From positions 189,976 to 223,663 of the forward strand of contig CP070831.1 of NCBI GenBank assembly GCA_020344955.1: a DNA stretch of 33,688 nt, in the 5' to 3' direction. The notes under the pieces were generated by a model. The model was not told where the DNA came from and ran no database searches. It saw only the letters and a program-made list of their open reading frames with translations. The position numbers and the translations under genes are program-made. Of the stretch, positions 16,499-33,688 are shown piece after piece. The DNA is from Promethearchaeota archaeon (GTDB lineage: Archaea > Asgardarchaeota > Lokiarchaeia > Sigyniarchaeales > SOKP01). The stretch's first letter is position 1. The number at the start of each line of letters is the position of its first letter.

Positions 16499-17662
16499 TT
16501 ATACGCGTTTTTGGAGTACGATGTGCTTTCTAATTGGTTCACAATGAGGAAATATAGTATCAACAGCTCGTGAATTATTAGACCAAATACCAGTTCCCTC
16601 AAAGTAATCTACACCATATAAATTACATGTAAGTTGTCCAATATTATTAAGAGCTGAGAAAATACCTTTACCAAAATATCCTTTTTTCACCATTGCGGTA
16701 TCTACATTACACCTGGTTATCGGATTTCCAGCCCATGCTTCGAATAAATCGGGAAGCCCTAATAAAATGCCAACTAACTCACCAGAAAGCTTATCAAAAG
16801 CCATTGGAGCAAATGGTTCTATTTTTTCCAAGTCATGGGTTTCCCAAGTTTCTCTAAATTGAAGTATATCTGAATGTTCCTTAAAATTAATGTGGCTATT
16901 TAAGGTATAGAAAGATTTTGGAATTTTTTGAAAGGCTTCAATAAACTCATTGATACGGTTTCTACCTGAAGCATCAGGTAAAATTTCATGAAATGAATTA
17001 GCTGCTAAATTACGAATTTCATAAACGTAATCATATAGCTTACTTAATGTCATATATCTAAACTCAATATTTTTATCTATTTTCTTACCTTTACCCCACA
17101 TTTTTTGAGCTACATACATACATGAATATTCTGATTCTCTTTGATATCCAATAGAATTCAAGTACTCCATGATTTTGGAATTTGGATCGGAAAAAGCCAC
17201 ACCATATAACATTGGTTCATTAAATCCCATGGATTGAATTCCTATCCCTCCTAAATTTTTGGGAAAATTGATATTTCCACGAATTTTACGTACCTTAAAT
17301 TCTTTAATAAATACTTCGCACCGTTTAATCAATTCTGTGCATATTTCTAAGTTATTAGCATGAAGCCACCCGAAGGTACCACATTTACGACTATAGCTTG
17401 AATAGTATGGATCAATTTGACAGATAACAAAACCCACTATTTTTTCTGCTTTATATGCAATAAACACTTGTAGTTTATAATCCTCATCTATAAACTTCTT
17501 TTCTAAATAAGAAAGAAGTTCATTAACTACAGACGATTTAAGAATATCATTTGGAATATACAAAATACTTTCTAAAGCTTGTTTAATCTCCCTTAAATCA
17601 GTTGTTTTAACAATTTTTAGAGGTTTATGTACTTCTAAAGATTTTTCTATAACTTGAACCAT
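16499..17662 (-). CDS. Long GNAT-like N-acyltransferase
   Basis: This is a 387-residue protein. Residues 55-130 (LQVFIAYKAEKIVGFVIC, then GWLHANNLEICTELIKRCE) carry the early strands of a GNAT fold. Residues 130-200 have the NFPKNLGGIGIQSMGF-x(n)-PMLYGV segment typical of long GNAT proteins, which have an N-terminal GNAT unit and a second, degenerate one. The C-terminal part (ELVGILLGLPDL, GYFGKGIFSALNN) looks like that second unit. It should transfer an acyl group to an amine or sugar. It is divergent from the PP-loop pair at 17824, and a shared role in building a modified sugar or surface molecule is inferred. Confidence 0.7.
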   Translation of the reverse strand: MVQVIEKSLEVHKPLKIVKTTDLREIKQALESILYIPNDILKSSVVNELLSYLEKKFIDEDYKLQVFIAYKAEKIVGFVICQIDPYYSSYSRKCGTFGWLHANNLEICTELIKRCEVFIKEFKVRKIRGNINFPKNLGGIGIQSMGFNEPMLYGVAFSDPNSKIMEYLNSIGYQRESEYSCMYVAQKMWGKGKKIDKNIEFRYMTLSKLYDYVYEIRNLAANSFHEILPDASGRNRINEFIEAFQKIPKSFYTLNSHINFKEHSDILQFRETWETHDLEKIEPFAPMAFDKLSGELVGILLGLPDLFEAWAGNPITRCNVDTAMVKKGYFGKGIFSALNNIGQLTCNLYGVDYFEGTGIWSNNSRAVDTIFPHCEPIRKHIVLQKRV

Positions 17663-17823: not shown

Positions 17824-18957
17824 ATGATAGAACAGCAAGTAAAAACAAGAGAGAAAGAGATCTCAATAGAAAAGAATATTTGTAGTAAATGTGTAAATGA
17901 TATTTCTGTTTCTGGAATCTCATTTAATAGTAATAATATATGTAATTATTGCGAAGAATATGAAAGGTTAGAATCAAGACTGACTGATTATAATGCTTTA
18001 ATAAAGTTATGGCTTGGAAGAATAGAAAAATACAAGGGACAAGGGGATTATGATGCCTTAGTTGGACTATCGGGGGGAAAGGATAGTACGTATGTATTAT
18101 ATCAATTGAAGAACACATACGGATTAAAAGTAAAAGCTTGGACGTTAGATCAGGGATTTCTAACCAAATGGTCTAAAGAAAGAATAGAAAGTATTGTCTC
18201 AGAATTAGGAGTGGATCATGAATATTCTAAGGTGGATCAAACAAAAATTACACCTCTTTATATTCTATCGATAATGGCGACTGGAGGGCCATGTTATACC
18301 TGTAGCTATGTTATGTACGGCCTATTCATTAAAACGGCTTCTGAGCAAAATATTCCTATGGCTGTTCACGGGCGTTCCAGACCTCAAATGTTAAAGATAT
18401 ATTCCCCACATAATAAATTTGATCCTTATAAGCCATTTCTAGAAATGTCATTAAAGCCGATTGAAGATGTAAACCTTACAGAAACTTATGAGGATGTTTT
18501 AGCGGTATTAAACACGCTTCTTCCCGCGAATGAAGTTGAAAAATTTAGTGTATATTTTCCAGATCTTCAATGTGGGAATATTGCGGAATTTGTACCCTAC
18601 TTTCTTTACCATCCATATGATGAAACCAGATTAGTTGAATTCTTAGAAGCGAACATGAATTGGAAACGACATCAAGATTATGCTATTTTCACTCATTTCG
18701 ACTGTGCTGCACATGACGCTGCAGGATATTTATACGAAATTGCTGATGAAAGACCATTTATTATGCCAGAACTAAGTGTATCTATACGAGAAGGGATAAT
18801 TTCCAGAGAAGATGCTCTAAAGCGATTAGAAAAGGAAACTTTCACAGAATTTCCTACTAAATCTATGGAAACTCTAACAAAATACATAAATAAAACTCAA
18901 AGATCCCTTATCTCCAATGCAAGACGTATTGCCAGGAGAAGGAGCTATACCCAATAA
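17824..18957 (+). CDS. PP-loop ATPase, N-acetyl-sugar amidotransferase-like, paralogue 1
   Basis: This is a 377-residue protein. An N-terminal zinc-binding pair (CSKC at 21-24 and CNYC near 40-43) precedes the PP-loop SGGKDS (83-88), which adenylates a carbonyl or similar group. A second CxxC lies at Cys157/Cys160 (GGPCYTC). The C-terminal REGIISREDALKRLEKE segment is characteristic of the WbpG/PseA-type N-acetyl-sugar amidotransferases, which convert a 2-acetamido sugar to an amidine. Such enzymes normally use ammonia from HisH/HisF-type partners, which are absent here, so a sulfur-transfer role like TtuA/Ncs6 is a fair alternative. The paralogue follows 49 nt downstream. Confidence 0.8.
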   Translation: MIEQQVKTREKEISIEKNICSKCVNDISVSGISFNSNNICNYCEEYERLESRLTDYNALIKLWLGRIEKYKGQGDYDALVGLSGGKDSTYVLYQLKNTYGLKVKAWTLDQGFLTKWSKERIESIVSELGVDHEYSKVDQTKITPLYILSIMATGGPCYTCSYVMYGLFIKTASEQNIPMAVHGRSRPQMLKIYSPHNKFDPYKPFLEMSLKPIEDVNLTETYEDVLAVLNTLLPANEVEKFSVYFPDLQCGNIAEFVPYFLYHPYDETRLVEFLEANMNWKRHQDYAIFTHFDCAAHDAAGYLYEIADERPFIMPELSVSIREGIISREDALKRLEKETFTEFPTKSMETLTKYINKTQRSLISNARRIARRRSYTQ

Positions 18958-19006: not shown

Positions 19007-20179
19007 ATGATTGAACAACAACATATATGTAAAAAATGCATTTTACCAGATGGTTTTCTAGGGATTTCATTAGATTCTCAAGGTGAATGTAATTTCTGTC
19101 GAGATCCTCATCATGAAAATGTCAACTGGGCTCGAACTCAAATTGATCAAGAAAGGAGAGCTAATGCATTAGATGATTGGAATAATATAATTAAGCAAAT
19201 GCAGAAAAATCACGGAAACGTTCCATATGATTGTATCTTAGGATATTCCGGAGGTAAAGATTCTACAGCACTTTTAGATTACATTGTAACTAATCTAAAC
19301 CTAACACTATTATGTGTAACTACGGACACAGGATTTATGACAAATATAGCAAAAGATAATATGAAAGATACTCTGACTCAAATCAATGTTGATCATGTAT
19401 TAATTGAAGACTGTATCCCAACTTTTACTAAACTCTACAAATGGCACTTTCTTAACCATAACTCAAATGAAAGATTTTTAGCAAGGTATATATGTGATTT
19501 TTGTTCTGATTTGATTCATAGCATCGTTGTAAAAGAAGCCATCAAACGTAAAATTCCATATGTTTTTTTTGGATATTCACCAGATCAAATTGCGCGTTAT
19601 TTTTTTGAAATGCCAAGAGATCAAATCATTGAAGAATGGACGCCGGATTTAATATTCAACGATCCTATCTTTGATGATTCTGATAAGCAATGGTATTTAA
19701 CACATGAAGAAATGAATAGTGGAAAACTCCCTAGAGTTCTTTTACCTTATCATGTAATACCCTATCAAGAACAAGATATCATCGAACTCGTGGAATCTAA
19801 GAATTATATTAAGAAGGGCCATGCAGATCCCCTTTTAACTAATTGTAATGTAGTCCACGCAGCTACTTTTTATGATTTTAATCGATATGGTGGGATTCTA
19901 TATGCCTATCAATATGCTGAATTAGTACGTCAGAACCCAGAATCACGTAAAAAGTGGCTTAGAACATTAAAGATTTCTGCTCCACTTATTCTAGACAATA
20001 ACTTTAAACGAAAGGAAGTAAACGTATTTTTAAACAAAATTGGGATTTCTCAGAATGAATTAATTAAACATATAAATCTACAATTAGAACAAGATCCTAA
20101 CAAAAAACAAATACAAACAAATATAAATCTATTTAAGAAAAAGCGAGTAGCTAGAAGATCAATAACAATATCAAATTAA
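19007..20179 (+). CDS. PP-loop ATPase, N-acetyl-sugar amidotransferase-like, paralogue 2
   Basis: The 390-residue protein has the same plan as its neighbour: CKKC and CNFC at the N-terminus, SGGKDS at 81-86, CDFC at 163-166, then YVFFGYSPDQIARYFF and a late conserved Cys (LLTNCNV). The start is ATG after AGTGAT. The two proteins have diverged well beyond a recent duplication and keep separate insertions. They may form a heteromer or act on successive sites of one substrate. The C-terminus is basic (FKKKRVARRS), as is that of paralogue 1 (ARRRSYTQ), a shared feature that could mean binding to RNA or an acidic surface. Confidence 0.78.
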   Translation: MIEQQHICKKCILPDGFLGISLDSQGECNFCRDPHHENVNWARTQIDQERRANALDDWNNIIKQMQKNHGNVPYDCILGYSGGKDSTALLDYIVTNLNLTLLCVTTDTGFMTNIAKDNMKDTLTQINVDHVLIEDCIPTFTKLYKWHFLNHNSNERFLARYICDFCSDLIHSIVVKEAIKRKIPYVFFGYSPDQIARYFFEMPRDQIIEEWTPDLIFNDPIFDDSDKQWYLTHEEMNSGKLPRVLLPYHVIPYQEQDIIELVESKNYIKKGHADPLLTNCNVVHAATFYDFNRYGGILYAYQYAELVRQNPESRKKWLRTLKISAPLILDNNFKRKEVNVFLNKIGISQNELIKHINLQLEQDPNKKQIQTNINLFKKKRVARRSITISN

Positions 20180-21427: not shown

Positions 21428-23353
21428 TCAACTAAATGATGCCCAACAAAACCAAGGAATTAGAGAAGTAAGAATTGTGATTAGTAATATCCATTCGAGT
21501 AATGGAGATGGAACGATAAAATTTACAACAAGGATTATAAAAGGTAAAATTCCATTTATTCCAATAATTTTTGGCATCTTTAAATTATTATGGAATATAG
21601 CCACTCCAAATATAGGTAATGCTATAATAAATCCACCAAAAGCACATATAGAGGAGATAATATGCAACATTCCCTCTGGTCCTGATCTATCTAAACTAAA
21701 AATACCAACTAACATAATCCCTATACTCCCAATAGATCCGAAAATTAAGCCAAATCTTAGAATTCTCTTCAGCAATTTGTTCTTTACTTTTGCTTGCATC
21801 CTTTTTGAAATATAGCAATACAATAGAGTTGTTGTTAATCCACCTACTATACATGAAAAATCAAAAATAAATGGGAGAGGTGTAATTGTGAATGAACCAA
21901 GCTGACTAATGGTATGAGATATAATATTGTATCCAAAAATATGTGCAGTTATTATACTTCCTACTAGCATAAAAAGATAAATCATTAATCCCATCATCAA
22001 TGAGGATTTAATTGTTTTTGGATAATCCCAGACATTTGAGAGTCTCTCTTTAATACTGTATAATGCTGGAAATTTCTCAAAAAATTGTTTCTCATCCACA
22101 ATATCCTTTATATGTTTTGCATTATCAAGGGATACAATATCTAGAAGTATTTTTCCCTCATCAATTAATTGAATATTAGGATCAATTTTACCGTTATACC
22201 AATTAAATAAAATATGGTCTTCGAACACTTCTTTTTCACTATTAAATACCCAGCTTGGAACATAACCTCGTGGGGTTAGTCCAAGATCATAGAATAACTT
22301 CTGATGAGAAGGCTCATAAGCAGAGATAAATGCTTCACAATATCTAATTCCTAATTCTTTACCACAGTTAATAAAATTTTTCGCAAAAACATACAATTCC
22401 TCAAGGTTTTTTACCTGATATTTAGTTTTTTCAAAATTTTGAACTTGTGGAGTATATATAAATTCAAAAAAAGAATCTGAGTTTGAAAAACTAAATTGAA
22501 TAGTTTCATATCCGAATTTGTCTTTTTTCACTTGTTTTTTTATATCTTTCTTAAGACGATATATCTTTTTTAAATCTAAATTTAATCCTGGTGTTGTGAT
22601 TCTATAATCTCCCAAGTCATATCTGTTTTCAGAATATAAATAACAAATTTCCACTTCTGGTATGATCTCAGGAATTTTATTCACTCTAAATTGTTTTAGA
22701 GCTCGTTCATCATAACATATTTGCATTAAATCCGATTCTACTTTTCCTAAGAATACATCTTTATTCGGATAAAATCCAATAGGAGCAATACCACACACCC
22801 ACATGGAATATTGAGATTTTGAATGAGCTGTTCTGTTCTCAACGTACCATATATAAATCTTATCTTTATACTTATGAATCATCCCGATCATAGAACCGAT
22901 CATCGCTTTTGTGATATCGATATATCCTTGATATTTCTTTTTAAGCATAAAACCCCTGATATAACCACGTTTATTACCAAAATCGAGAACAAATGTTATA
23001 CATCCTGCTATTTGATGAGAAGGATCTTGATAAATAATCCACTGAATATTTGGATCTTGAATCATTCTACGAACTTCATTTATATCTTCCATTTCTTTAT
23101 AAGGGTAAGTACCATTATATAACTCTTTATAAATTCCTACTAATTCTTCGGCATCTTCTGGTTTTGCCAAACATAAGATTGGATTTACTTTCTTCTTTTC
23201 CTTTCTATCGCATATTTCAAAATCAAGACACATTCCATTATGTATATCAGGATTTACTACTTTTTCAAATGGTTTAATAAATTGATTTATAGAATTTGGA
23301 AATAGCTGATTAAGCGATACTACAGAATCTGTTAATGCTTCTTTAGATAACAT
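21428..23353 (-). CDS. GNAT-like acyltransferase fused to a DUF998-like membrane domain
   Basis: This is a 641-residue protein. Residues 55-190 hold an N-terminal GNAT unit (CLAKPEDAEELVGIYKEL, WIIYQDPSHQIAGCITFVLD, YIRGFMLKKKYQG). Residues 320-400 hold a second GNAT-like end (AYEPSHQKLFYDLGLTPRGY, then PSWVFNS). Residues 445-640 contain about six membrane helices, with HTISQLGSF, FSCIVGGLTTTLLY, GIFSLDRSGPEGMLH and HIISSICAFGGF in the order typical of DUF998/Frag1-like proteins. The enzyme part should sit at the cytoplasmic face, suggesting acylation of a lipid-linked or membrane-delivered amine. The fusion is unfamiliar to me. The substrate is unknown. Confidence 0.7.
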   Translation of the reverse strand: MLSKEALTDSVVSLNQLFPNSINQFIKPFEKVVNPDIHNGMCLDFEICDRKEKKKVNPILCLAKPEDAEELVGIYKELYNGTYPYKEMEDINEVRRMIQDPNIQWIIYQDPSHQIAGCITFVLDFGNKRGYIRGFMLKKKYQGYIDITKAMIGSMIGMIHKYKDKIYIWYVENRTAHSKSQYSMWVCGIAPIGFYPNKDVFLGKVESDLMQICYDERALKQFRVNKIPEIIPEVEICYLYSENRYDLGDYRITTPGLNLDLKKIYRLKKDIKKQVKKDKFGYETIQFSFSNSDSFFEFIYTPQVQNFEKTKYQVKNLEELYVFAKNFINCGKELGIRYCEAFISAYEPSHQKLFYDLGLTPRGYVPSWVFNSEKEVFEDHILFNWYNGKIDPNIQLIDEGKILLDIVSLDNAKHIKDIVDEKQFFEKFPALYSIKERLSNVWDYPKTIKSSLMMGLMIYLFMLVGSIITAHIFGYNIISHTISQLGSFTITPLPFIFDFSCIVGGLTTTLLYCYISKRMQAKVKNKLLKRILRFGLIFGSIGSIGIMLVGIFSLDRSGPEGMLHIISSICAFGGFIIALPIFGVAIFHNNLKMPKIIGINGILPFIILVVNFIVPSPLLEWILLITILTSLIPWFCWASFS

Positions 23354-23522: not shown

Positions 23523-23882
23523 CTATATAGAAGATTTCATATCATTTTCTAAATTTTTATATATTTTATTAATCCGTTTACCTATGACTTCCAGAAGTTG
23601 ATTTTTTTCTTTTATTTCTTTTTCTAATTGATCTAAATCAGAATTTTCTTTTGTAAATTCTCTAATTGATTTATTTTTATTTGCTTGTTCTATGTGGAAT
23701 GGAATAAAATCTAACAAGGCGTTCAATATATCGGAACGAAGCTCAAGTACTTTTTTTCCTAAATTTGTTATTGAAATTTCTCCAGTTTTTGCCATCATTA
23801 AAGCTTCTTTAAGAGTTTTTAAATTATCCTTATCAAACACAATTTTTTCCAATTGTTCTTCAATTTTTATGCTATTTTCCAT
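23523..23882 (-). CDS. Coiled-coil protein ending the HerA-like operon
   Basis: The protein has about 119 residues from MENSIKIEEQLEKIVF, preceded by a GGGA motif. A start at 23900 (MNREKYMENS) would overlap the HerA-like stop codon. An even longer reading from 23954 is possible but runs inside the upstream gene. It is helical throughout, with a likely coiled coil in the C-terminal half (DLDQLEKEIKEKNQLLEVIGKRINKIYK). No membrane helix. Its place as last gene of the operon suggests a soluble partner of the complex. Confidence 0.6.
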   Translation of the reverse strand: MENSIKIEEQLEKIVFDKDNLKTLKEALMMAKTGEISITNLGKKVLELRSDILNALLDFIPFHIEQANKNKSIREFTKENSDLDQLEKEIKEKNQLLEVIGKRINKIYKNLENDMKSSI

Positions 23883-23892
23883 ATATTTTTCC

Positions 23893-26800
23893 CTATTCAT
23901 TGATAAATTGTTGAATTTTACTAAAAAATGTTGAAATTGAATGATACATCTCATTTGCTAACACTTCCAAATCGGCGACTTCTAAATTGATATGATGAAA
24001 TTGATCAATATAGTCAATCAGTTCTTGTTTTGAAAATGGAAATCCTTCAGTCTTTTCTAATATAGTTAAAAATGAGTTAAAACCTTGTTGAACAACCGTA
24101 TCTTTATTGTAAAAATGTCTATATACTCCCCTTAAATATCCTTTTAGTAATCCCATTTGGGTTTTTATCGCAATCGAATAATTATTTTTAGCAATATACC
24201 TATAGATTTTGAAAATATTATAGTAAAGATCACCAATTTCACGAGACAAAGCCTCTTTTAAGTTCTCCTCTTGGATGATATATTTTCGGGAGTGCATTGG
24301 GAATATTTTCTCAAAATCTTCAAATTTTAGACTTTCCTTATCTAACACTTCTACTTGAAAATTCCTATATTTTCTTCCTTTTACTTTGTAATAATCTTCG
24401 AGCGCTTCTTGATATCGTGGACCTACTGAAAATGAGGTTCTTAACGACTCTCCACCGCCTGCTCTTTTAGGATGATTCTCTACAAGGTATCCATGCTTAA
24501 TAAGAACATCTAATATGTTATTTCTAATTTTCTTCATGTGTTCTTTGTTCTGTGTTTTTTCTGCCAAGGCTGGATAGATAAATTTTTTTAGCTGTTCTTC
24601 TAATTTTTTTCTATAGAGATTTCCAATTTGATCAACCGTCAAGACAGAATCCATGAACCTAATAATCGTTTCTATATAGATATAATAATGTCCTAAATCA
24701 ATTTCAAACAGAGTTTCTTTTACATTTTCTAATATTGTTTTTTCTGAAAATTTTATGTCATATCCTTGTTTATTCATGAATTTTACGATCTCCTCATATG
24801 GCCATTTCGGACAACTGTCAATATCTTTCCAGTCTATTATCGCAGGAAATGGTTGGTCAATATCATCTCTTCGAGTTAGAATTATATTCTTCTTTAGATT
24901 TCTTAGGTAAAAGATCTGATAAGCATGTTTTCTACTCTGAGTGTAATATCCTTGGCCTTCTAACTCTTGGAGGTTCAATTCATTTTTGAGTATACCTATA
25001 TCCCTATTATCTGTTGCTCTTAATGTGATATAATTATTGAAATATAAAAGAGAATTTGGATGTAGATGGCGAATTTGATGAGCAGAAAAGATTAGTCCAA
25101 ATTTTCTCTCAATAAGAGGCTTTAGAAAAATATCTATTTTATCATATGTTTTTCTCAAATTTAAAAAATAGGAGTCAAAAAACACATCGATATAAGGTAT
25201 ATATATGAACTTGGGAAGATATTTCTCCTGATAGGTAATATAATGAATGAGTTTTGATACCAAAACAAAGGTTACAAAAAGCTTCTTCTTCAGTTCCCGA
25301 AACACTGAGAGATCAATAATAACAGTCTTGGAACTAGTAAGGAAATCACCTACTGTGATTCCATCCTTTTGAATGTTCTGAAAGAAAATTAATTCATTTG
25401 GAGTAAAATCTGCAAATACAGAGAGAAGTAAATCGCTTACAGGGGTTTTTTCCCATTCACTTTGATTTTTTAATTGCATTTGAATCGTTCCTAAGTCCAT
25501 TTCAGGATTTTTTTGAATTGTGTGTCGAAACATTTCTACGATACGCTCATCTCTTTTTAATGCCAATCCAAAAGCATCATAAATATATTCTAAATAATCA
25601 GTATGATGAGGATCGTATGGAATATCTGATTTAATAGGATCGATAATAAAAGAGCTACCATATTTGAAATATAAAATTTCTTCCTGAAAGATCGTATCTT
25701 TAAAATAGTCGAGCAATTTAGACCATGCCCCGTTAAAATCAAAAATAAGAGAATAATTCCGAGTTTTAATTAACTCCGATACTATTTTCATTGCAAGTAG
25801 TTCACGATGTTCCGGAATACCATTAGTAATGAATAAATTATGCAATTGTTCAAGAGTAAAACCAAATGGTACTTCGGTTTCTAAAACTTCTGTATTTATG
25901 GTATTTCCAATAGTAATAAAATTATCTAAGTATAAAGGAGTGTTAAACTCTGCAGCAATTTCTGTCCTCTCACCTTTCTTTAAAATATCGACAATATCAG
26001 TAAGTGGATACATTCGTGCCCCTTGAAACATCACATAATTTAAGTGAGTTCCATTTAACCGAAATAAATTGTGTTTTAATGTGGAGAAAAGATACCCTGA
26101 ATGTAAATTACTAGACCTAACGTCTTCAATCACATATGATTGAAAATTGATTCCAAAAGCTCCTTTTAAAACATTAACTTGATTATCAAGGTCATTCTCA
26201 AGGTCTTCAAAAGAATTTTCGTCAGCGATATCAGTATATCTATAGGAATTTACTGACATGGTTAACATGGTAAACCACATTCCAGATCGGATTCCTAACC
26301 ATTTTTCTTCATGAGCTTGAGTTTTAATCATTGTTTCTTCATCCCAAAGCATTCCTTTTCGTATTTTCTCTTTTAAATATTTTAATCCGCCACTGTGTTC
26401 AAATAAATAATAACTAATGGGTCGGTTCTTCAAAGTGTAGCTAAAATTTACATTATGGTTATTGAGAGCTTCAATAAATTTGCCTAATAAACAGAAAGGA
26501 CTTTCATAGACACATTTTAGGTTCACCATTTTCATTCCGATTAAAAGTTCATTCTCTACATGAAAAAAAATGCTATGAGGATATTGTCTTATCCGATAAA
26601 ATTTCATATTATCAAATGGCTTAGCAACTACTATATTTTGATCATGTATCAATTTTGTTTTACTGAACTGAAATAAGGTAGATCTCCACCATAACAAGAT
26701 TATAGCAAGAAGAATTCCGAAATTAATAGGGAATATATAAATAAAGAGCAATTTCATCCAAAGAATAAAGAAATCAAAATAGAAAACCAAGATACTACAC

Positions 26801-27705
26801 ATGATAAGTTTCCAAAATTTATGTGAATTATTACTTTTTAAGGCATACCTCTTTGCAATAGGTGTTTCGTAAATAGATGTCTTATCCTTAAGGTAGAATG
26901 TACGAACTGCATTCATTAGAGCATTTCCTGACAATAAAACAGTTTTAAAGTGATGAAAATTGCTTACAATATTACTCTTAAGATTGTTCGCATATTGGAC
27001 GATACGATAATGTAATTGCTCCAAAGTACGATTTGAAAGATTTCCTTTTTCTTTGGTATATACTGAGAAATATATAGTTGCTCCTCTGGATTGTAATGAT
27101 TTAAGAGTATTAACTCGTGAAGATTCTTTATTAAATATCTTTATTGTCGGTTTCTGAACAATTTGATATGAGTATGATAATCTCATACCTTCGGAACCTA
27201 ACGCTTTTACAAATTGATTGATTGCAGAATGTACATTTTCAGCTATAACTTTTATTTGATAGATTTTTAATGCGATATGGAGTAAATCTCTTCGATTTGA
27301 AAAATATAATGTTGATGTATCATCTTTATGATACCAGAACACTAAATCTTCAAATGGTTTGGATATTATTTTATTTCTAAAAGAATATGAAAAGAAATTC
27401 TTTAGGAAATAGAATTCATCATGAAAAACTATAATGAAAGCAACACAAAAACCAATTCCTAACCCAACAGATGCGATCAAATGGTTTGTTAGGATATACA
27501 TTGAAATTATGAGTGCTGAAGAAAGAATAATAAAGAAAATTGTCTTTATTAAACTAAATTTGCGTGAAATATCTTTATATGACGGATTTACATCCCAAAT
27601 ATTTAAATAACTCTTTAGATTCGCTCCTTCTTCTATTATGATTTTCCTGTTTTTCTTTTTATCGTATTCGGAATATTCCTCTGAAGAGTTATAGACTTTT
27701 ACCAT
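23893..27705 (-). CDS. HerA/VirB4-like membrane pseudo-ATPase (1270 residues)
   Basis: Two membrane-helix pairs lie near residues 48-92 and 297-340. A HerA/VirB4-type motor region follows. FGFTLEQLHNLF (about 614-625) aligns with the strand before the P-loop, but the Walker A GxTGSGKS is replaced by TNGIPEHRE (627-635). A Walker-B-like SLIFDFNGAW (Asp656) remains, and TVIIDLS (794-800), IPYIDVFFD (836-844, where ATPases have a DEAH/DE motif) and GLIFSAHQIRHL followed by YITLRATDNRDIG are recognisable. So the fold appears kept while nucleotide binding is probably lost. The last 350 residues are helical. The start follows GGAGAT and lies 7 nt after the previous gene. Family assignment comes from motif order and needs a profile search. 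Confidence 0.55.
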   Translation of the reverse strand: MVKVYNSSEEYSEYDKKKNRKIIIEEGANLKSYLNIWDVNPSYKDISRKFSLIKTIFFIILSSALIISMYILTNHLIASVGLGIGFCVAFIIVFHDEFYFLKNFFSYSFRNKIISKPFEDLVFWYHKDDTSTLYFSNRRDLLHIALKIYQIKVIAENVHSAINQFVKALGSEGMRLSYSYQIVQKPTIKIFNKESSRVNTLKSLQSRGATIYFSVYTKEKGNLSNRTLEQLHYRIVQYANNLKSNIVSNFHHFKTVLLSGNALMNAVRTFYLKDKTSIYETPIAKRYALKSNNSHKFWKLIMCSILVFYFDFFILWMKLLFIYIFPINFGILLAIILLWWRSTLFQFSKTKLIHDQNIVVAKPFDNMKFYRIRQYPHSIFFHVENELLIGMKMVNLKCVYESPFCLLGKFIEALNNHNVNFSYTLKNRPISYYLFEHSGGLKYLKEKIRKGMLWDEETMIKTQAHEEKWLGIRSGMWFTMLTMSVNSYRYTDIADENSFEDLENDLDNQVNVLKGAFGINFQSYVIEDVRSSNLHSGYLFSTLKHNLFRLNGTHLNYVMFQGARMYPLTDIVDILKKGERTEIAAEFNTPLYLDNFITIGNTINTEVLETEVPFGFTLEQLHNLFITNGIPEHRELLAMKIVSELIKTRNYSLIFDFNGAWSKLLDYFKDTIFQEEILYFKYGSSFIIDPIKSDIPYDPHHTDYLEYIYDAFGLALKRDERIVEMFRHTIQKNPEMDLGTIQMQLKNQSEWEKTPVSDLLLSVFADFTPNELIFFQNIQKDGITVGDFLTSSKTVIIDLSVFRELKKKLFVTFVLVSKLIHYITYQEKYLPKFIYIPYIDVFFDSYFLNLRKTYDKIDIFLKPLIERKFGLIFSAHQIRHLHPNSLLYFNNYITLRATDNRDIGILKNELNLQELEGQGYYTQSRKHAYQIFYLRNLKKNIILTRRDDIDQPFPAIIDWKDIDSCPKWPYEEIVKFMNKQGYDIKFSEKTILENVKETLFEIDLGHYYIYIETIIRFMDSVLTVDQIGNLYRKKLEEQLKKFIYPALAEKTQNKEHMKKIRNNILDVLIKHGYLVENHPKRAGGGESLRTSFSVGPRYQEALEDYYKVKGRKYRNFQVEVLDKESLKFEDFEKIFPMHSRKYIIQEENLKEALSREIGDLYYNIFKIYRYIAKNNYSIAIKTQMGLLKGYLRGVYRHFYNKDTVVQQGFNSFLTILEKTEGFPFSKQELIDYIDQFHHINLEVADLEVLANEMYHSISTFFSKIQQFINE

Positions 27706-27712
27706 AATCTTT

Positions 27713-28570
27713 TTATCTCCCTTTTCGAAATTGTTTGATATAAAAGTAAATTAAAATTACAGCACACGTGAAAAATATTAACACCAATGAGCTTAAGCCA
27801 CTTGAAACAATCGGAAGAACACTCAGTTCAAGAAGAATCATAATTCCGAGAGAAACTAATAATATTACTAACCCTAAAATGAAATACCCAAAAATGGATT
27901 CAATAGATTTTCGATATATGATATTATCCTTTAAAGCCCCTTGAACTATAATCTTCCCTGTTTTTTGTTTAGTGATTGATTTTTTAAGTGAGTGTAGGTG
28001 AATAGCGGTTTCAAAATTTTGAGAGTTCAACTCATGTTGTAGATTCTTTCTAAGATTAGATTCTTTTTCTGATATTTTTTGTAAAAGTAGAGGTTTCAAA
28101 TCTGAGGTATGATTATTTTTACTAGTGTTTCTAGATGATAGAAATGAAAATATACCTAATTTAGAAGACTCTAGAAACTCTTCCTGCTTTAAACTTTTAT
28201 GAAGATTAGGTACTTCCATTCTTCTTAAATCATAGTAAGTAGTAAACATTTGTTTAATATATTCTAAAGGAATATTTCCTTTATTTTTCAAGAAAAGTAT
28301 TTCACATTGCCTTATTATGTCAATATGTTCATTGGGAAAAATAGGAACTTGTAAATTCTTATAAAATATATCATTTATAAGCTCCATATATTCAAATATT
28401 CTTTCTCCTGAAGAATGATTTCGAGCTCGTACTCCCAGATTGATCCCAATTTCATTTAATCTATTACTTGTTAAAATAAAACTTACAACAGCTAATTTCT
28501 TATAATTTTGAGTATCTTTGCAAATCTGGATAAGATTTTTTAATTTTGCATCAATTATCTCATAATTCAT
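27713..28570 (-). CDS. Tail-anchored membrane protein of the HerA-like operon
   Basis: This is a 285-residue protein. The first 225 residues are polar and helical (LKNLIQICKDTQNYKKLAV, EYIKQMFTTYYDLRRME, ISEKESNLRKNLQHEL). Two hydrophobic helices follow (about 228-250 and 256-277) and a basic end FRKGR, so most of the protein should face the cytoplasm. Its ATG overlaps the stop of the preceding gene (ATGA), and GGAGGG precedes it, showing translational coupling. Unknown family. Confidence 0.6.
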   Translation of the reverse strand: MNYEIIDAKLKNLIQICKDTQNYKKLAVVSFILTSNRLNEIGINLGVRARNHSSGERIFEYMELINDIFYKNLQVPIFPNEHIDIIRQCEILFLKNKGNIPLEYIKQMFTTYYDLRRMEVPNLHKSLKQEEFLESSKLGIFSFLSSRNTSKNNHTSDLKPLLLQKISEKESNLRKNLQHELNSQNFETAIHLHSLKKSITKQKTGKIIVQGALKDNIIYRKSIESIFGYFILGLVILLVSLGIMILLELSVLPIVSSGLSSLVLIFFTCAVILIYFYIKQFRKGR

Positions 28571-29298
28571 TTTTTTCCCTCCACGAAGGTAATTAATAAT
28601 GATTCTGCGTCTCTTTCTGATAGTCGGGTGTCCAATTTTGATTGTAGTTCCTCTTCGGCAATATATTTATCTAAATCAATAAGTTCTTGAGAATTTTCAA
28701 TTATTTTTTGTACTATTTTTTCAGGCTCTCGTTCTTTTTGGATGAACGCACTAACAGTTCTATAATAAAATATAGAATAAGGAAAAATCAAAGGAAATGA
28801 GATAAGTTGCAGTATATATCCAGGTCCAACTGCATAAACATACAATAACTCTAATTCATAATTCCTTACGCTTAAAAAAGGGAAATAAAATTCATTGGGA
28901 ACTAAATATAATATAGGGCTAATAATTACGTAATATCCCACAAGCAATACTAAAAATATATTAATATAAGCAAATTTCATATAATTCTTGATGGCTTCTG
29001 CATTGTCGATATTCTTTACTAATATAACATAGCTAGAAGCTAAAATCCCACATATTATGATATAATTTATCACAACCGGAATTGTGGCATTATCAGGTCT
29101 CATAATTGAATTTAAAATAGAACTTGACGAAAAGGGCGTTTGCCATTCAGTAAGAAAATAATAGCTCCAAGAGACTACAAGGTCGTTATTAAAATCATAG
29201 ATCTGTACTGAATACCATTCTAAGAAAACTGAGAACAATAGTAATATTAATCCTATTAAAGCAACCAACCTAAAAATTTGGGATACACTTCTTTCCAT
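28567..29298 (-). CDS. Multi-pass membrane protein of the HerA-like operon
   Basis: The 243-residue protein has four or five hydrophobic helices (LVALIGLILLLFSVFLEWY at 12-30, VINYIIICGILASSYVILV near 75-95, FAYINIFLVLLVGYYVII near 107-127, and a later one near 155-175). A charged cytoplasmic tail follows, with REPEKIVQKIIENSQELIDL and a last helix. GGAGGAT precedes the ATG, 3 nt after the upstream gene. No family recognised; it is likely a structural subunit of the same membrane complex. Confidence 0.6.
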   Translation of the reverse strand: MERSVSQIFRLVALIGLILLLFSVFLEWYSVQIYDFNNDLVVSWSYYFLTEWQTPFSSSSILNSIMRPDNATIPVVINYIIICGILASSYVILVKNIDNAEAIKNYMKFAYINIFLVLLVGYYVIISPILYLVPNEFYFPFLSVRNYELELLYVYAVGPGYILQLISFPLIFPYSIFYYRTVSAFIQKEREPEKIVQKIIENSQELIDLDKYIAEEELQSKLDTRLSERDAESLLITFVEGKK

Positions 29299-29301
29299 CT
29301 T

Positions 29302-31293
29302 TCAATCCTCCAAAAATGAGCTGTATTTATCTACATATTTAAGTCTCGATTTGGGTTTTGATTCATTGGAATTCTCTAAATTCTCTGAGTCTTCAGATAT
29401 TTCGTCCTCAAAAAGATCTGAATCCTTAATTTTTTTCTTTCGCTGCTGTTCTTCAAGGTATTTTTCAGCATTATCTGTTTCTATTTTGTTAATGAAAATA
29501 TTCGCTGAATTTTTCCCTACGCACTCATATAAAAACTGAACCATCAATTTTTGACTTAGTTCTTCACGTATCATAATTAAAGTACCATCGTCAAAATTTT
29601 CTTTCTTCTGGTAATAGGGAGTTGAGAACTGTTGATGAAGCGCTGATTTTTGTTTATATAGGGTTAAATAAACATATCCTACCACAAAACAATAGAATAT
29701 GACAACTCCATACCCTAAATTGATTAACAATGGTAAGACTGAATATGTTTGGAATAATATTATTAACAAAACTACTAATCCATAGAGCATAAATGGAGCT
29801 GAATAGTTTCTCAAGTCCTTCATAAATTTATTTGAAGCTTCAAAGTTAAGCTCTATAGCAGTTTTTTCTTCACTATACGTTTCTAGCAAAAAATATTTCT
29901 GGTCAAGATACTGTAGAAGATCAGAGAGTTTATTAAGTTCTACAATATGAATATTAGATTGATTTTGATACGCAAACGGAATAAGTTTTTCAATAAATCC
30001 GACAGTATTTTGGGTAATCAGTAATGGTTCAATAAGGATTTTATATTGCAGTGGTCCAGATCGGAAAAATAGGTCTTTTCTTGTGATGGATTTTTCCAAA
30101 GTTATCTGAAGCCCTAAATATCTTGAAAGGTATTTAAATAGATTTCCTTGGTTTATTATATCAGAAGAGATGGACTGTTCGGCTTGAGAGAGCGCCTTGA
30201 GGAACGATTGTGGTAATAATTCTAACCGATAAGCATTACTTTCTGAATTTTTTTCTTTAGGGTGGTATTTTACATTCTCATTCGATACTATTAATGATCC
30301 TTTAAGAGAACAAATTTTTAAAGGAATGATATATATCAGATCTAAAAACTCTTTTACTTGTATATGTTTAACGGCTATTAAATCAACTCCTACAAACACT
30401 GCTCGTAATTGAGGGATCTTATCAATTATAATGAAATCAGATAAGTTTAGATATTTGGCAATTTGTTGGTGAAATTCTTTTATTTGTAAGTGAGAAAGGA
30501 GTTCATTGGTAGTAGCTTCCTTTTCCTGAAGAGCAAGAGTAGATTGGCGCACTACTTCTGGTGATATTACCACTTGTTTGGGAAACGGTATAGGAGATTC
30601 CATATCTATCCTTTCCTCAATACTATTATTATTAATATCATTATGTTCCTCAGCCAAATCTTCATAATCCTCTGAATCTTTATCATTTGATATTTCATCT
30701 TCGATCTCAATATCTCTCTCAAATCTTTCTTGCGCTTCTATTTTTTCAGGTTCTAAATCTTCAAATTCATATTCAGGTGATTCCAAAATTGGCTCAGGTT
30801 CCGTCTTCATTTCCTTAGATGACTCTTGAATCGTGTCTAATGTCTCTTGAGTCTTTCTAGGATTAGGAAAATCATTTAATTTTTTTAGGCGTAAATGATC
30901 TTTTGCCCCATTGATGTATTTCTCTGCTGTAGATAAACCAATTCCCTCTATCTTAGATAAACGGATTGGAGAAGAGTTCGCTAACTCTGATATTGACCTG
31001 ATCCCATAAGCAACAAGCCTTTCAGCACTCTTCGGACCGATTCCAGAAATTATTGTAAGTGATTCTTTCTGTATACTAGGAACTAAAGATTTAAGTTCGG
31101 AAACATTTGTACTAAATGAATTAAATTTTTTAACCCAATCATCACTTTGAAGTTGTTTTGCTTGTTCAAGTCCACTTTTAGAGAACTTCAAAGCTTCCTC
31201 TACATCGTTTTCTTGAAATGCCTCTTGTGCTAATTTATAATATGTGCTTAAATCTGGTTTTTTGTTTAGAACACTTTTTTCTAATTCCTGCAT
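29302..31293 (-). CDS. Helix-hairpin-helix membrane protein (TPR-like start), first gene of the HerA-like operon
   Basis: The protein has about 663 residues. Residues 10-45 form a TPR-like pair (YYKLAQEAFQENDVEEALKF). Residues 75-135 contain two helix-hairpin-helix units (IISGIGPKSAERLVAYGI, then LSKIEGIGLSTAEKYI), usually non-specific DNA binding. A highly acidic linker spans about 150-235, followed by a folded region of unknown type to about 500, two membrane helices at about 500-550, and a charged tail rich in acidic residues and lysine. So a DNA-binding module and a membrane anchor share one chain. The ATG at 31293 fits a leaderless message from the TATA box at 31321-31328; TTG 31302 is the alternative. 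Confidence 0.65.
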   Translation of the reverse strand: MQELEKSVLNKKPDLSTYYKLAQEAFQENDVEEALKFSKSGLEQAKQLQSDDWVKKFNSFSTNVSELKSLVPSIQKESLTIISGIGPKSAERLVAYGIRSISELANSSPIRLSKIEGIGLSTAEKYINGAKDHLRLKKLNDFPNPRKTQETLDTIQESSKEMKTEPEPILESPEYEFEDLEPEKIEAQERFERDIEIEDEISNDKDSEDYEDLAEEHNDINNNSIEERIDMESPIPFPKQVVISPEVVRQSTLALQEKEATTNELLSHLQIKEFHQQIAKYLNLSDFIIIDKIPQLRAVFVGVDLIAVKHIQVKEFLDLIYIIPLKICSLKGSLIVSNENVKYHPKEKNSESNAYRLELLPQSFLKALSQAEQSISSDIINQGNLFKYLSRYLGLQITLEKSITRKDLFFRSGPLQYKILIEPLLITQNTVGFIEKLIPFAYQNQSNIHIVELNKLSDLLQYLDQKYFLLETYSEEKTAIELNFEASNKFMKDLRNYSAPFMLYGLVVLLIILFQTYSVLPLLINLGYGVVIFYCFVVGYVYLTLYKQKSALHQQFSTPYYQKKENFDDGTLIMIREELSQKLMVQFLYECVGKNSANIFINKIETDNAEKYLEEQQRKKKIKDSDLFEDEISEDSENLENSNESKPKSRLKYVDKYSSFLED

Positions 31294-31320
31294 GCGTATC
31301 AAAGAAAAATACTTTAATTA

Positions 31321-31792: not shown

Positions 31793-33688
31793 ATAACATT
31801 AATAGATTTTACAGATAAAATTAAAGAGAAAGATTTAGAAAATGGATTAAATAAAGAGATCTTTAAATTTATTCCTGATAAACGTATATTGCGGGTATTA
31901 TTTGAAGAAAAAATTTTTTCCTTGCGAGAGATCCAAAAAGAAGCCATTAAGCAAGGTCTCTTTTTTCGAAAATCATTTTTAGTATGTGCTCCTTCTGGAA
32001 GTGGTAAAACTCTAATTGGGGAAGTATGTGCTATAAACAATGTTTTCCAGAAATTTGGCAAGTCGATATATTTAGTGCCTTACAAAGCTCTTGCTACGGA
32101 AAAGTATACTCACTTTAAAAAAAGTTATAGCAGATTTGGAGTAAAAATTGAACTATCTATAGGGGATTATGATATTGATGATTCCAAATTGGAAAAAGCA
32201 GACCTTATTGTTACCACTTATGAAAAATGTGATAGTATCTTAAGAAACTTTCATGAGAAGGCGTGGATTTTTGATATCTCTACTATCATCATAGATGAAA
32301 TTCATATTATTGGTGAATCAGATCGTGGTCCTCGTTTAGAATCATTAATTGTACGATTAAATGAGTTCCTTTATAATCCACAAATAATCGGACTTTCAGC
32401 GACGATAGCAAATCCAGAATTTTTTAATTCATGGCTTTCTTCACTTGGAAATCATACTCATCTTGTGAAGTCTGATGATCGTCCTGTTCCACTTCATTAT
32501 AAAATAGAAATTACTCAAAATAAAATCTCTACTATAAAAAGATTAGTTAAAAGCGCTTTAGAGAAAGATGGTCAAGTACTTATTTTTGTGAATAGAAGGA
32601 AAGTAGCCCAAAAGGTAGCTGATACTATTAAAAATGTAGTGGAGAAGTTTCTGGAACAAAATGAACTGAATGTATGTAAATCACTTGAAAAACGGTTAAA
32701 TTCTGTCAAAGGAGGGCACCGTGAATTAATAAAGGTAATCAAACACGGGATTGCGTTCCACCATGCCGGATTACTCCCAAAAGAGCGAAAGGTAATTGAA
32801 GATAATTATAGGAAAAGGATTATAAAGGTTATATGTTGTACTACTACACTTTCAGCTGGAATCAATACTCCTGCTCGTATAGTGATTTTAAAGGATTTTA
32901 AAAAGTACATAACATCAGGACATAATATTAAAAACTTTTCGGGATACCATGAAAATGGTGATGGTTTTTCCTATTTCAAGCCTTTTTCAGCAAACGAGGT
33001 ATTTCAAATACTTGGGAGAGCGGGGCGTCCTGGACTTGATACAGTAGGATATGGTATTATCCTTGTGAAAAACATCGAAGAAAAAATGTGGGTAGAAGAT
33101 CACTTTTTTCAAAATCATCACCTTCAATCCACTTTAATACCGAAATATAACAACCTGACTTCAGGGTTAAATAAAATCAATACTCTTAAAGAACAAGTAC
33201 TTCTTCGAATTTATGAAGAAAATAAAATTACATTAGAGAAATTAAAAGAGTTCTTCGAGAAGACGTATTTTTGGTATGGAATTAAAAATAAAATGAAAGA
33301 GCAGCAAATTCCTATAGAGCAACTGTTAATGATAAAAGAAATTACTCAAATCAACATCTTAAAACTTCATTCTAACCCTGAACAGGTAATATTATTAAAA
33401 AAAGAGAATCTCCAAATTAAACTCACAAAAGTAAATGAAGATAATATTTCTGGGTATATAAAAACCCCATATGGTGTTTATTATTGTCAATTCGATATTG
33501 AGACAGGAATCCAATGTACATGTGGATTCAAGAATGGTATATCAGATAATTTCATAAACGACGAGTTCTCCTTTGAGTTCTGTAATCATATAAGTACTTT
33601 CTTGGTATATCTAATTCAGATGCCTGATATGAATTTTCAGAAGTATGTGGATTCAATTATTCCTAAGTCTGTGAAAAACCAATATATT
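31793..33688 (+). CDS. Ski2-like (Hel308-type) DExH helicase with SWIM zinc finger, partial
   Basis: 632 codons are visible and the 3' end is cut. Superfamily 2 motifs are in order: a Q-like FSLREIQKEAI, Walker A APSGSGKT, motif Ia YLVPYKALA, DExH IIIDEIH, LSAT in GLSATIANPE, HHAGLLPKERK, TTTLSAGINTPAR and motif VI QILGRAGRPG, all typical of the Ski2/Hel308 branch. Near the visible end, CTC at 33515-33523 and CNH at 33581-33589 form a C-x-C-x19-C-x-H SWIM finger, usually a nucleic-acid or protein contact. An upstream TGA at 31784 leaves no canonical start near the expected N-terminus. GGTGA at 31782-31786 precedes ATA 31793 by 7 nt (from GGTG). TTG 31889 would give a version shortened by 32 residues. 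Confidence 0.88.
   Translation, partial: MTLIDFTDKIKEKDLENGLNKEIFKFIPDKRILRVLFEEKIFSLREIQKEAIKQGLFFRKSFLVCAPSGSGKTLIGEVCAINNVFQKFGKSIYLVPYKALATEKYTHFKKSYSRFGVKIELSIGDYDIDDSKLEKADLIVTTYEKCDSILRNFHEKAWIFDISTIIIDEIHIIGESDRGPRLESLIVRLNEFLYNPQIIGLSATIANPEFFNSWLSSLGNHTHLVKSDDRPVPLHYKIEITQNKISTIKRLVKSALEKDGQVLIFVNRRKVAQKVADTIKNVVEKFLEQNELNVCKSLEKRLNSVKGGHRELIKVIKHGIAFHHAGLLPKERKVIEDNYRKRIIKVICCTTTLSAGINTPARIVILKDFKKYITSGHNIKNFSGYHENGDGFSYFKPFSANEVFQILGRAGRPGLDTVGYGIILVKNIEEKMWVEDHFFQNHHLQSTLIPKYNNLTSGLNKINTLKEQVLLRIYEENKITLEKLKEFFEKTYFWYGIKNKMKEQQIPIEQLLMIKEITQINILKLHSNPEQVILLKKENLQIKLTKVNEDNISGYIKTPYGVYYCQFDIETGIQCTCGFKNGISDNFINDEFSFEFCNHISTFLVYLIQMPDMNFQKYVDSIIPKSVKNQYI

Follow-up and report, generated by a model that had tools for sequence, protein, structure and literature searches.

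In bacterial competence, ComEA/ComFA combine a membrane-anchored helix-hairpin-helix (HHH) DNA receptor with a helicase. Among secretion systems, VirB4 has been called a signature subunit, one that all T4SSs described so far possess (PMC12857230). The Ced and Ted systems are T4SS-derived and domesticated for DNA exchange (PMC9905601, PMC11868833). In Ced, CedB and CedD each carry part of the VirB4 N-terminal domain (PMC11868833), while Ted loci adjoin HerA, Rad50 and ParA genes (PMC9905601). For the recombinase RadA, a duplication in Asgard archaea, with two RadA clades in some of them, is described in the available part of Matsuo et al. (2025, PMC12722695); that part makes no mention of gene neighbourhood or of a link with Hel308 or VirB4.

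The window analyzed here is a stretch of 33,688 nucleotides from the genome of a Promethearchaeota archaeon, assembled as a single contig of 3.34 Mb. It harbors five minus-strand ORFs, all co-directional, between positions 23523 and 31302. The earlier note had described five tightly spaced or overlapping genes, and the ORFs are confirmed with two refined starts (31293 and near 23900), the second suggested by relatives of the coiled-coil protein of 121-127 aa. The genes for the 285-aa and 243-aa proteins overlap by 4 bp. A Hel308-like helicase gene lies upstream of the operon and is transcribed divergently.

31889-33688, plus strand: Hel308-like helicase, conserved divergent neighbour; continues past the window end
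29302-31302, minus strand: 666-aa HHH membrane protein, probably starting at the ATG at 31293
30898-31062, minus strand: HHH_5 domain of the 666-aa protein, residues 81-135
28567-29298, minus strand: multi-spanning membrane protein, 243 aa, 3-4 transmembrane (TM) segments
27713-28570, minus strand: 285-aa protein, soluble in its N part, with a C-terminal TM segment (hydropathy, synteny)
23893-27705, minus strand: membrane-anchored VirB4/HerA-like putative pseudo-ATPase, 1270 aa
27424-27543, minus strand: its first TM hairpin, residues 55-94 (hydropathy and model helices)
26644-26829, minus strand: its second hydrophobic helical hairpin, residues 293-354
24811-25941, minus strand: its RecA/ASCE core, residues 589-965; matches VirB4, HerA, DndH-C and TrwB
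25801-25827, minus strand: TNGIPEHRE at the P-loop position, residues 627-635
25186-25209, minus strand: degenerate Walker B, residues 833-840
23523-23954, minus strand: coiled-coil protein, ORF of 143 aa, likely ~125 aa

The 666-aa protein consists of a RadA-type HHH (HHH_5, E 3.7e-12 in the Pfam search), an acidic linker, an alpha/beta domain and then a C-terminal TM hairpin, in keeping with its first description as an HHH membrane protein with an acidic linker. Foldseek and VIA-align find no PDB fold match for the alpha/beta domain. Fold searches with the C-terminal part give nothing significant (best Foldseek E 0.08; best VIA Z 8.4, a helical hairpin only). The two other membrane proteins that had been claimed, of 243 and 285 aa, are borne out, and hydropathy places membrane segments in four of the five Lokiarchaeal operon proteins. 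Downstream of the operon is a gene for a GNAT-like plus DUF998 membrane protein (21428-23353), found at the same position in 10 of 20 relatives. The window also contains a gene for a 387-aa protein with no Pfam match (16499-17662), which keeps its synteny with the operon in nine loci of Lokiarchaeia, and two paralogous genes in tandem (17824-18957 and 19007-20179) with weak similarity to QueC / argininosuccinate synthase (HUP).

Fold and nucleotide site of the large protein

The 1270-aa chain has no convincing match in Pfam or NCBIfam, and a profile of its Lokiarchaeal family finds no match in the PDB by sequence-only search. The AF2 model (residues 1-1132; pLDDT 77.4, pTM 0.59) has a RecA/ASCE fold, and its best structural match is R388 TrwK/VirB4 (Foldseek E 2.8e-18). 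The VIA-align superposition with TrwK/VirB4 has a Z of 25.8 and covers model residues 115-981, with an rmsd of 12 A over this multi-domain span; a VirB4-type N-terminal domain is thus present beside the core. The core itself (589-965) matches VirB4 (4ag5/4ag6; Z ~24, rmsd 4.1), DndH-C (Z 24.3, rmsd 3.9) and HerA (4d2i; Z 23.4, rmsd 4.6), all by VIA-align. Since VirB4 fits the fold best along almost all of the chain, the derivation from a conjugation or DNA-pumping system that the earlier note had proposed gains ground. Only residues 319-337 of the second hairpin (~293-354) pass the hydropathy threshold. Judged by sequence and model, the N-terminal domain that follows each hairpin is similar, which looks like a duplication. 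A check of the genome for an active HerA plus NurA elsewhere located NurA at 608,874 and five DUF87 (HerA-type) matches; the 1270-aa protein is therefore not the HerA of this cell.

At the P-loop position, Arg634 of TNGIPEHRE replaces Lys and Glu635 replaces Ser/Thr. This motif had been singled out from the beginning, and the alignment now places the GxxGxGK[ST] of intact relatives in exactly its columns, where intact Asgard relatives show, for example, GAIGSGKT and GMSGSGKS. The loss goes beyond chance, being common to 50 distinct sequences of Lokiarchaeal homologues: the position reads xNGxxxxR[ED], with Arg at the place of Lys in 48 of the 50 and Glu or Asp as the next residue in 47. A search for G....GK[ST] along whole chains finds no such motif in the 1270-aa protein or in any of the 50 homologues. 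In the model, Pro837, which is invariant in the Lokiarchaeal family, would sit at the Walker B Asp position, and the acidic pair of Walker B is missing from this family. Split-gene homologues of other families retain hhhhDD or DE (e.g., L091), their Walker A being equally dead.

Across 15 Asgard families, 19 of 19 checked copies have no P-loop; Arg is retained in most of them, the exceptions being families f2, f5, f11 and f25. In the tree, these dead copies separate from active ones, save for the placement of one 106-column fragment, and the AU test does not reject monophyly of the dead copies (p 0.40). This is consistent with their common origin. The dN/dS of near-identical pairs is 0.22 and 0.25, and 0.18 and 0.13 in a central stretch of the core, values of 0.13-0.25 that indicate a gene that is not decaying. 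Broken copies do occur, one with an internal stop (L047) and another with several stops (G012:C4). The fold, the family-wide loss of the P-loop and purifying selection together support a pseudo-ATPase of HerA/VirB4 descent, to which the model assigns the full VirB4 architecture. The claim of a pseudo-ATPase has therefore held, with a RecA/ASCE fold in the model and a P-loop nowhere in the chain.

Synteny and helicase linkage in Lokiarchaeia

The nearest named relatives of the 1270-aa protein belong to Lokiarchaeia MAGs, the best (65% identity) being from isolate ABR05. A profile built from the Lokiarchaeal alignment and run against genome contigs recovers Lokiarchaeia only, plus one Hodarchaeum MAG; all five families occur in the same order in one MAG of that name (L102 = G098). 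The five-gene order is repeated in ~14 of 20 loci, and 12 of the 20 have the Hel308-like helicase as divergent neighbour. The large protein itself has a patchy distribution, present in 43 of the 65 genomes of the Lokiarchaeal family and in 0-5 copies per genome. The helicase is found in 34 of the 43 genomes that have it versus 5 of the 22 that do not (Fisher p 3e-5, 65 genomes). When completeness is at least 90%, genomes with and without the helicase number 26:7 in the first group versus 1:8 in the second (p 4e-4), and none of 20,000 within-genus permutations reaches the observed co-occurrence. In G009, one of the five exceptions, the contig ends ~1.4 kb upstream of the helicase, so the operon may be missing from the assembly alone. 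Given their linkage, a single deletion or missing contig takes away both genes; the co-occurrence shows a genetic unit and is by itself no proof of shared function. Synteny and co-occurrence agree with the conserved system that had been predicted.

Some loci depart from this arrangement. In L042 (9040-12726), the N part of the HHH protein is fused in frame to residues 365-1270 of the large protein, and the membrane genes formerly between the two partners are lost. Paralogues L046-L048 and L055 are located elsewhere with different neighbours; L046, L047 and L048 are second-type Lokiarchaeal copies with another conserved upstream pair, of 171-186 aa and 366-500 aa.

The patchy occurrence, with some copies broken, may point to an accessory role in defence or against plasmids, with invading DNA trapped at the membrane, comparable to other defence systems that contain HerA; ATPases of this type are found in SIR2-HerA, DUF4297-HerA and DndH systems (PMC10853773). 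However, PADLOC matches none of the eight proteins of the system that were tested, the Lokiarchaeal operon contains no recognised nuclease or effector, and in other Asgard families the system is near-universal and syntenic, unlike defence islands. A role in defence is improbable on this evidence. The membrane segments in four of the five proteins would also suit an envelope or protein-secretion scaffold of T4SS descent that has no DNA role, next to which the helicase could be a coincidence. This is highly improbable, as the helicase linkage is repeated within Lokiarchaeia and in other families, is reflected in the co-occurrence, and is accompanied by an HHH domain in the operon itself. Of the DNA-handling or envelope machine suggested by the earlier note, the DNA role, first guessed from the HHH, is strengthened by the recombination neighbours described below, and the DNA-free envelope role becomes less likely.

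Homologues and recombination genes across Asgard archaea

A profile of the split core has matches in 186 of 227 Asgard genomes, covering 53 of 61 genera. For the dead family, 186 of 227 is a maximum, since the weak tail includes intact HerA-type relatives. Outside Lokiarchaeia, the protein is often split into an N part of 200-350 aa and a core of 480-535 aa that ends in a C-terminal winged-helix-like segment; the other form is a fusion of 770-1400 aa. Clustering of 16 non-Lokiarchaeal neighbourhoods gives Hel308-cluster helicases in 11, RadA/RadB in 10, the N part in 10 and FEN1-like proteins in 8. Two of those 11 helicases (L096, L084) are distant helicase types and were dropped from the Hel308 set. 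When the Lokiarchaeal 243-, 285- and 143-aa proteins are compared with the island proteins of other families, the hhalign probability is at most 20%, except for one homologue of the 243-aa protein in L095. NifH-like genes lie directly downstream of the VirB4-like gene in two families (L085 6299-7189; L091 4514-6729), and L091 also has a nitrogenase component-like gene there; these neighbours are judged incidental.

In family f8, a single co-directional operon of ~15 genes with many overlaps occurs in eight neighbourhoods from ~seven genera (L187-L190, L194-L196, L103), and its content is complete wherever the contig extends far enough. The order is two small ORFs, RadA-like, c6, an ORF, XPD-like, N-part-like, an ORF, the pseudo-VirB4, Hel308-like, an ORF of ~530 aa, RadB-like, an ORF of ~315 aa, RadB-like without a P-loop and, last, FEN1-like. 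Several of the ORFs have no family. The RadB-like protein without a P-loop (L190 3129-3833 and equivalents) and the RadB-like protein beside it, which has one, may form a second dead/active pair in the operon.

In nearly all tested genomes, the canonical recombination gene resides on another contig and scores far higher than the island copy, that is, the copy adjoining the VirB4-like gene. The canonical and island scores are 440-495 versus 204-334 bits for RadA, 617-677 bits versus 247-318 for most island copies of Hel308, and 414-519 versus 112-306 bits for FEN1; f8 genomes have a second XPD elsewhere. That the canonical genes lie scattered serves as a built-in control for clustering by chance. 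Of seven island RadAs, six fall in one clade (support 95/99). The canonical Hel308 proteins group with 100/100 support, apart from both the island copies and that of the window; placing the Lokiarchaeal copies among the island proteins gives AU p 0.39, placing them with the canonical proteins 0.18, and a single clade of island and window copies is neither shown nor rejected by these tests. By scores and trees, the island RadA, RadB, Hel308 and FEN1 of Asgard archaea (and XPD in f8) are diverged paralogues and not housekeeping copies. The duplication of Matsuo et al. (2025) probably includes the island RadA2. Derivation of the HHH domain of the 666-aa protein from this RadA2 is unsupported, canonical and island RadA scoring alike. 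In Lokiarchaeia, the sole recombination link of the operon is the Hel308-like gene, and both RadA genes in the genome of the window are canonical. This genome also has a second, diverged FEN1 (263 bits; G000:C1:2643259-2644272), away from the operon.

Proposed role and comparison with known systems

The favoured reading, given about an even chance, is a membrane-anchored scaffold derived from VirB4 that works without ATP hydrolysis and whose partners would direct it to DNA exchange or uptake with recombination. Like VirB4, the dead subunits would form a ring on the cytoplasmic side of the membrane, holding DNA there as a dock or the base of a channel. The HHH protein would be the membrane DNA receptor and the multi-TM proteins would make up the membrane part, while the dedicated Hel308-like helicase, joined in other Asgard lineages by RadA-, XPD- and FEN1-like partners, would supply energy and processing. 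DNA reaching the membrane would pass straight into homologous recombination. By analogy, the most likely purpose would be intercellular DNA exchange or uptake plus recombination, functionally like Ced/Ted or bacterial ComEA/ComFA. A DNA role is backed by the recombination paralogues that adjoin homologues across the phylum. Against DNA exchange, no clear pilin or VirB6 homologue is recognised, the operon has only a dead paralogue and no active translocase, and in Lokiarchaeia it is linked to a Hel308-like gene alone. As to a VirB6-like channel, multi-TM proteins exist (243 aa here; 323 aa with 5 TM by hydropathy in L190). More tentatively, the system may be an ancient, phylum-wide Asgard machine for sex-like DNA exchange, with a dead VirB4-type ring and its own paralogous recombinase/helicase/flap nuclease kit, distinct from that used for housekeeping.

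The main rival is a tether that serves DNA repair or replication at the membrane, where it would anchor stalled forks, chromosome ends or the nucleoid and recruit enzymes of the Hel308/RadA type while no DNA is transported. The neighbours are repair and recombination enzymes and not pilins or relaxases, a dead motor fits a tether better than a pump, and the counterparts of both the HHH and the C-terminal winged-helix-like part are DNA-binding in other proteins. However, polytopic membrane proteins and VirB4-specific N-terminal domains exceed the needs of a tether, and a presence in 43 of 65 Lokiarchaeal genomes is unlike that of a core repair function. The tether is doubtful taken by itself and, as an account of the data, nearly as good as DNA exchange.

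A conserved family that lost ATP binding ahead of much of the Asgard radiation, and on which purifying selection nevertheless kept acting, would mean that pumping is not the sole job of the VirB4 ring. Linkage with diverged RadA, RadB, Hel308 and FEN1 (and XPD) makes this a candidate dedicated membrane recombination apparatus of Asgard archaea, the closest known prokaryotic relatives of eukaryotes. Chromosomal DNA exchange in these relatives, as well as the role of the second Asgard RadA, thereby become testable. A literature search found no description of an archaeal complex of such composition, in line with the earlier note; in the open-licence literature, no paper was found that connects archaeal VirB4 with Hel308, or that treats a dead VirB4 family of Asgard archaea or the operon.

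Like VirB4 (R388 TrwK and T. pseudethanolicus VirB4), the large protein has an N-terminal domain, a RecA/ASCE core and an association with the membrane. In L085, a small gene with 2 TM segments precedes separate N-part and core genes, comparable to virB3 before virB4 (PMC12857230). Unlike in VirB4, Walker A is lost family-wide and Walker B in Lokiarchaeia, the N-terminal domain with its own TM hairpin is apparently duplicated, and the partners are recombination enzymes. In contrast to a T4SS, none of VirB2/5/6/8/10/11 or VirD4 is recognised beside the gene. The HerA-NurA end-resection complex has the core fold in common (HerA Z 23.4), but here NurA is absent from the operon and the ATP site is gone. 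For ComEA/ComFA, the HHH protein and the helicase offer an analogy, with no homology demonstrated beyond the HHH and no ComEC channel identified. Ced and Ted differ in that CedB/TedB are described as ATPases and that both systems possess a pilin and VirB6, and for neither is a RadA2/Hel308/FEN1/XPD operon described. Nevertheless, these importers of Sulfolobales (Ced) and Thermoproteales (Ted) are likewise chromosomal and archaeal and include a TM-containing protein of VirB4/HerA type, and they are the nearest known systems and the closest working precedents for the Asgard system.
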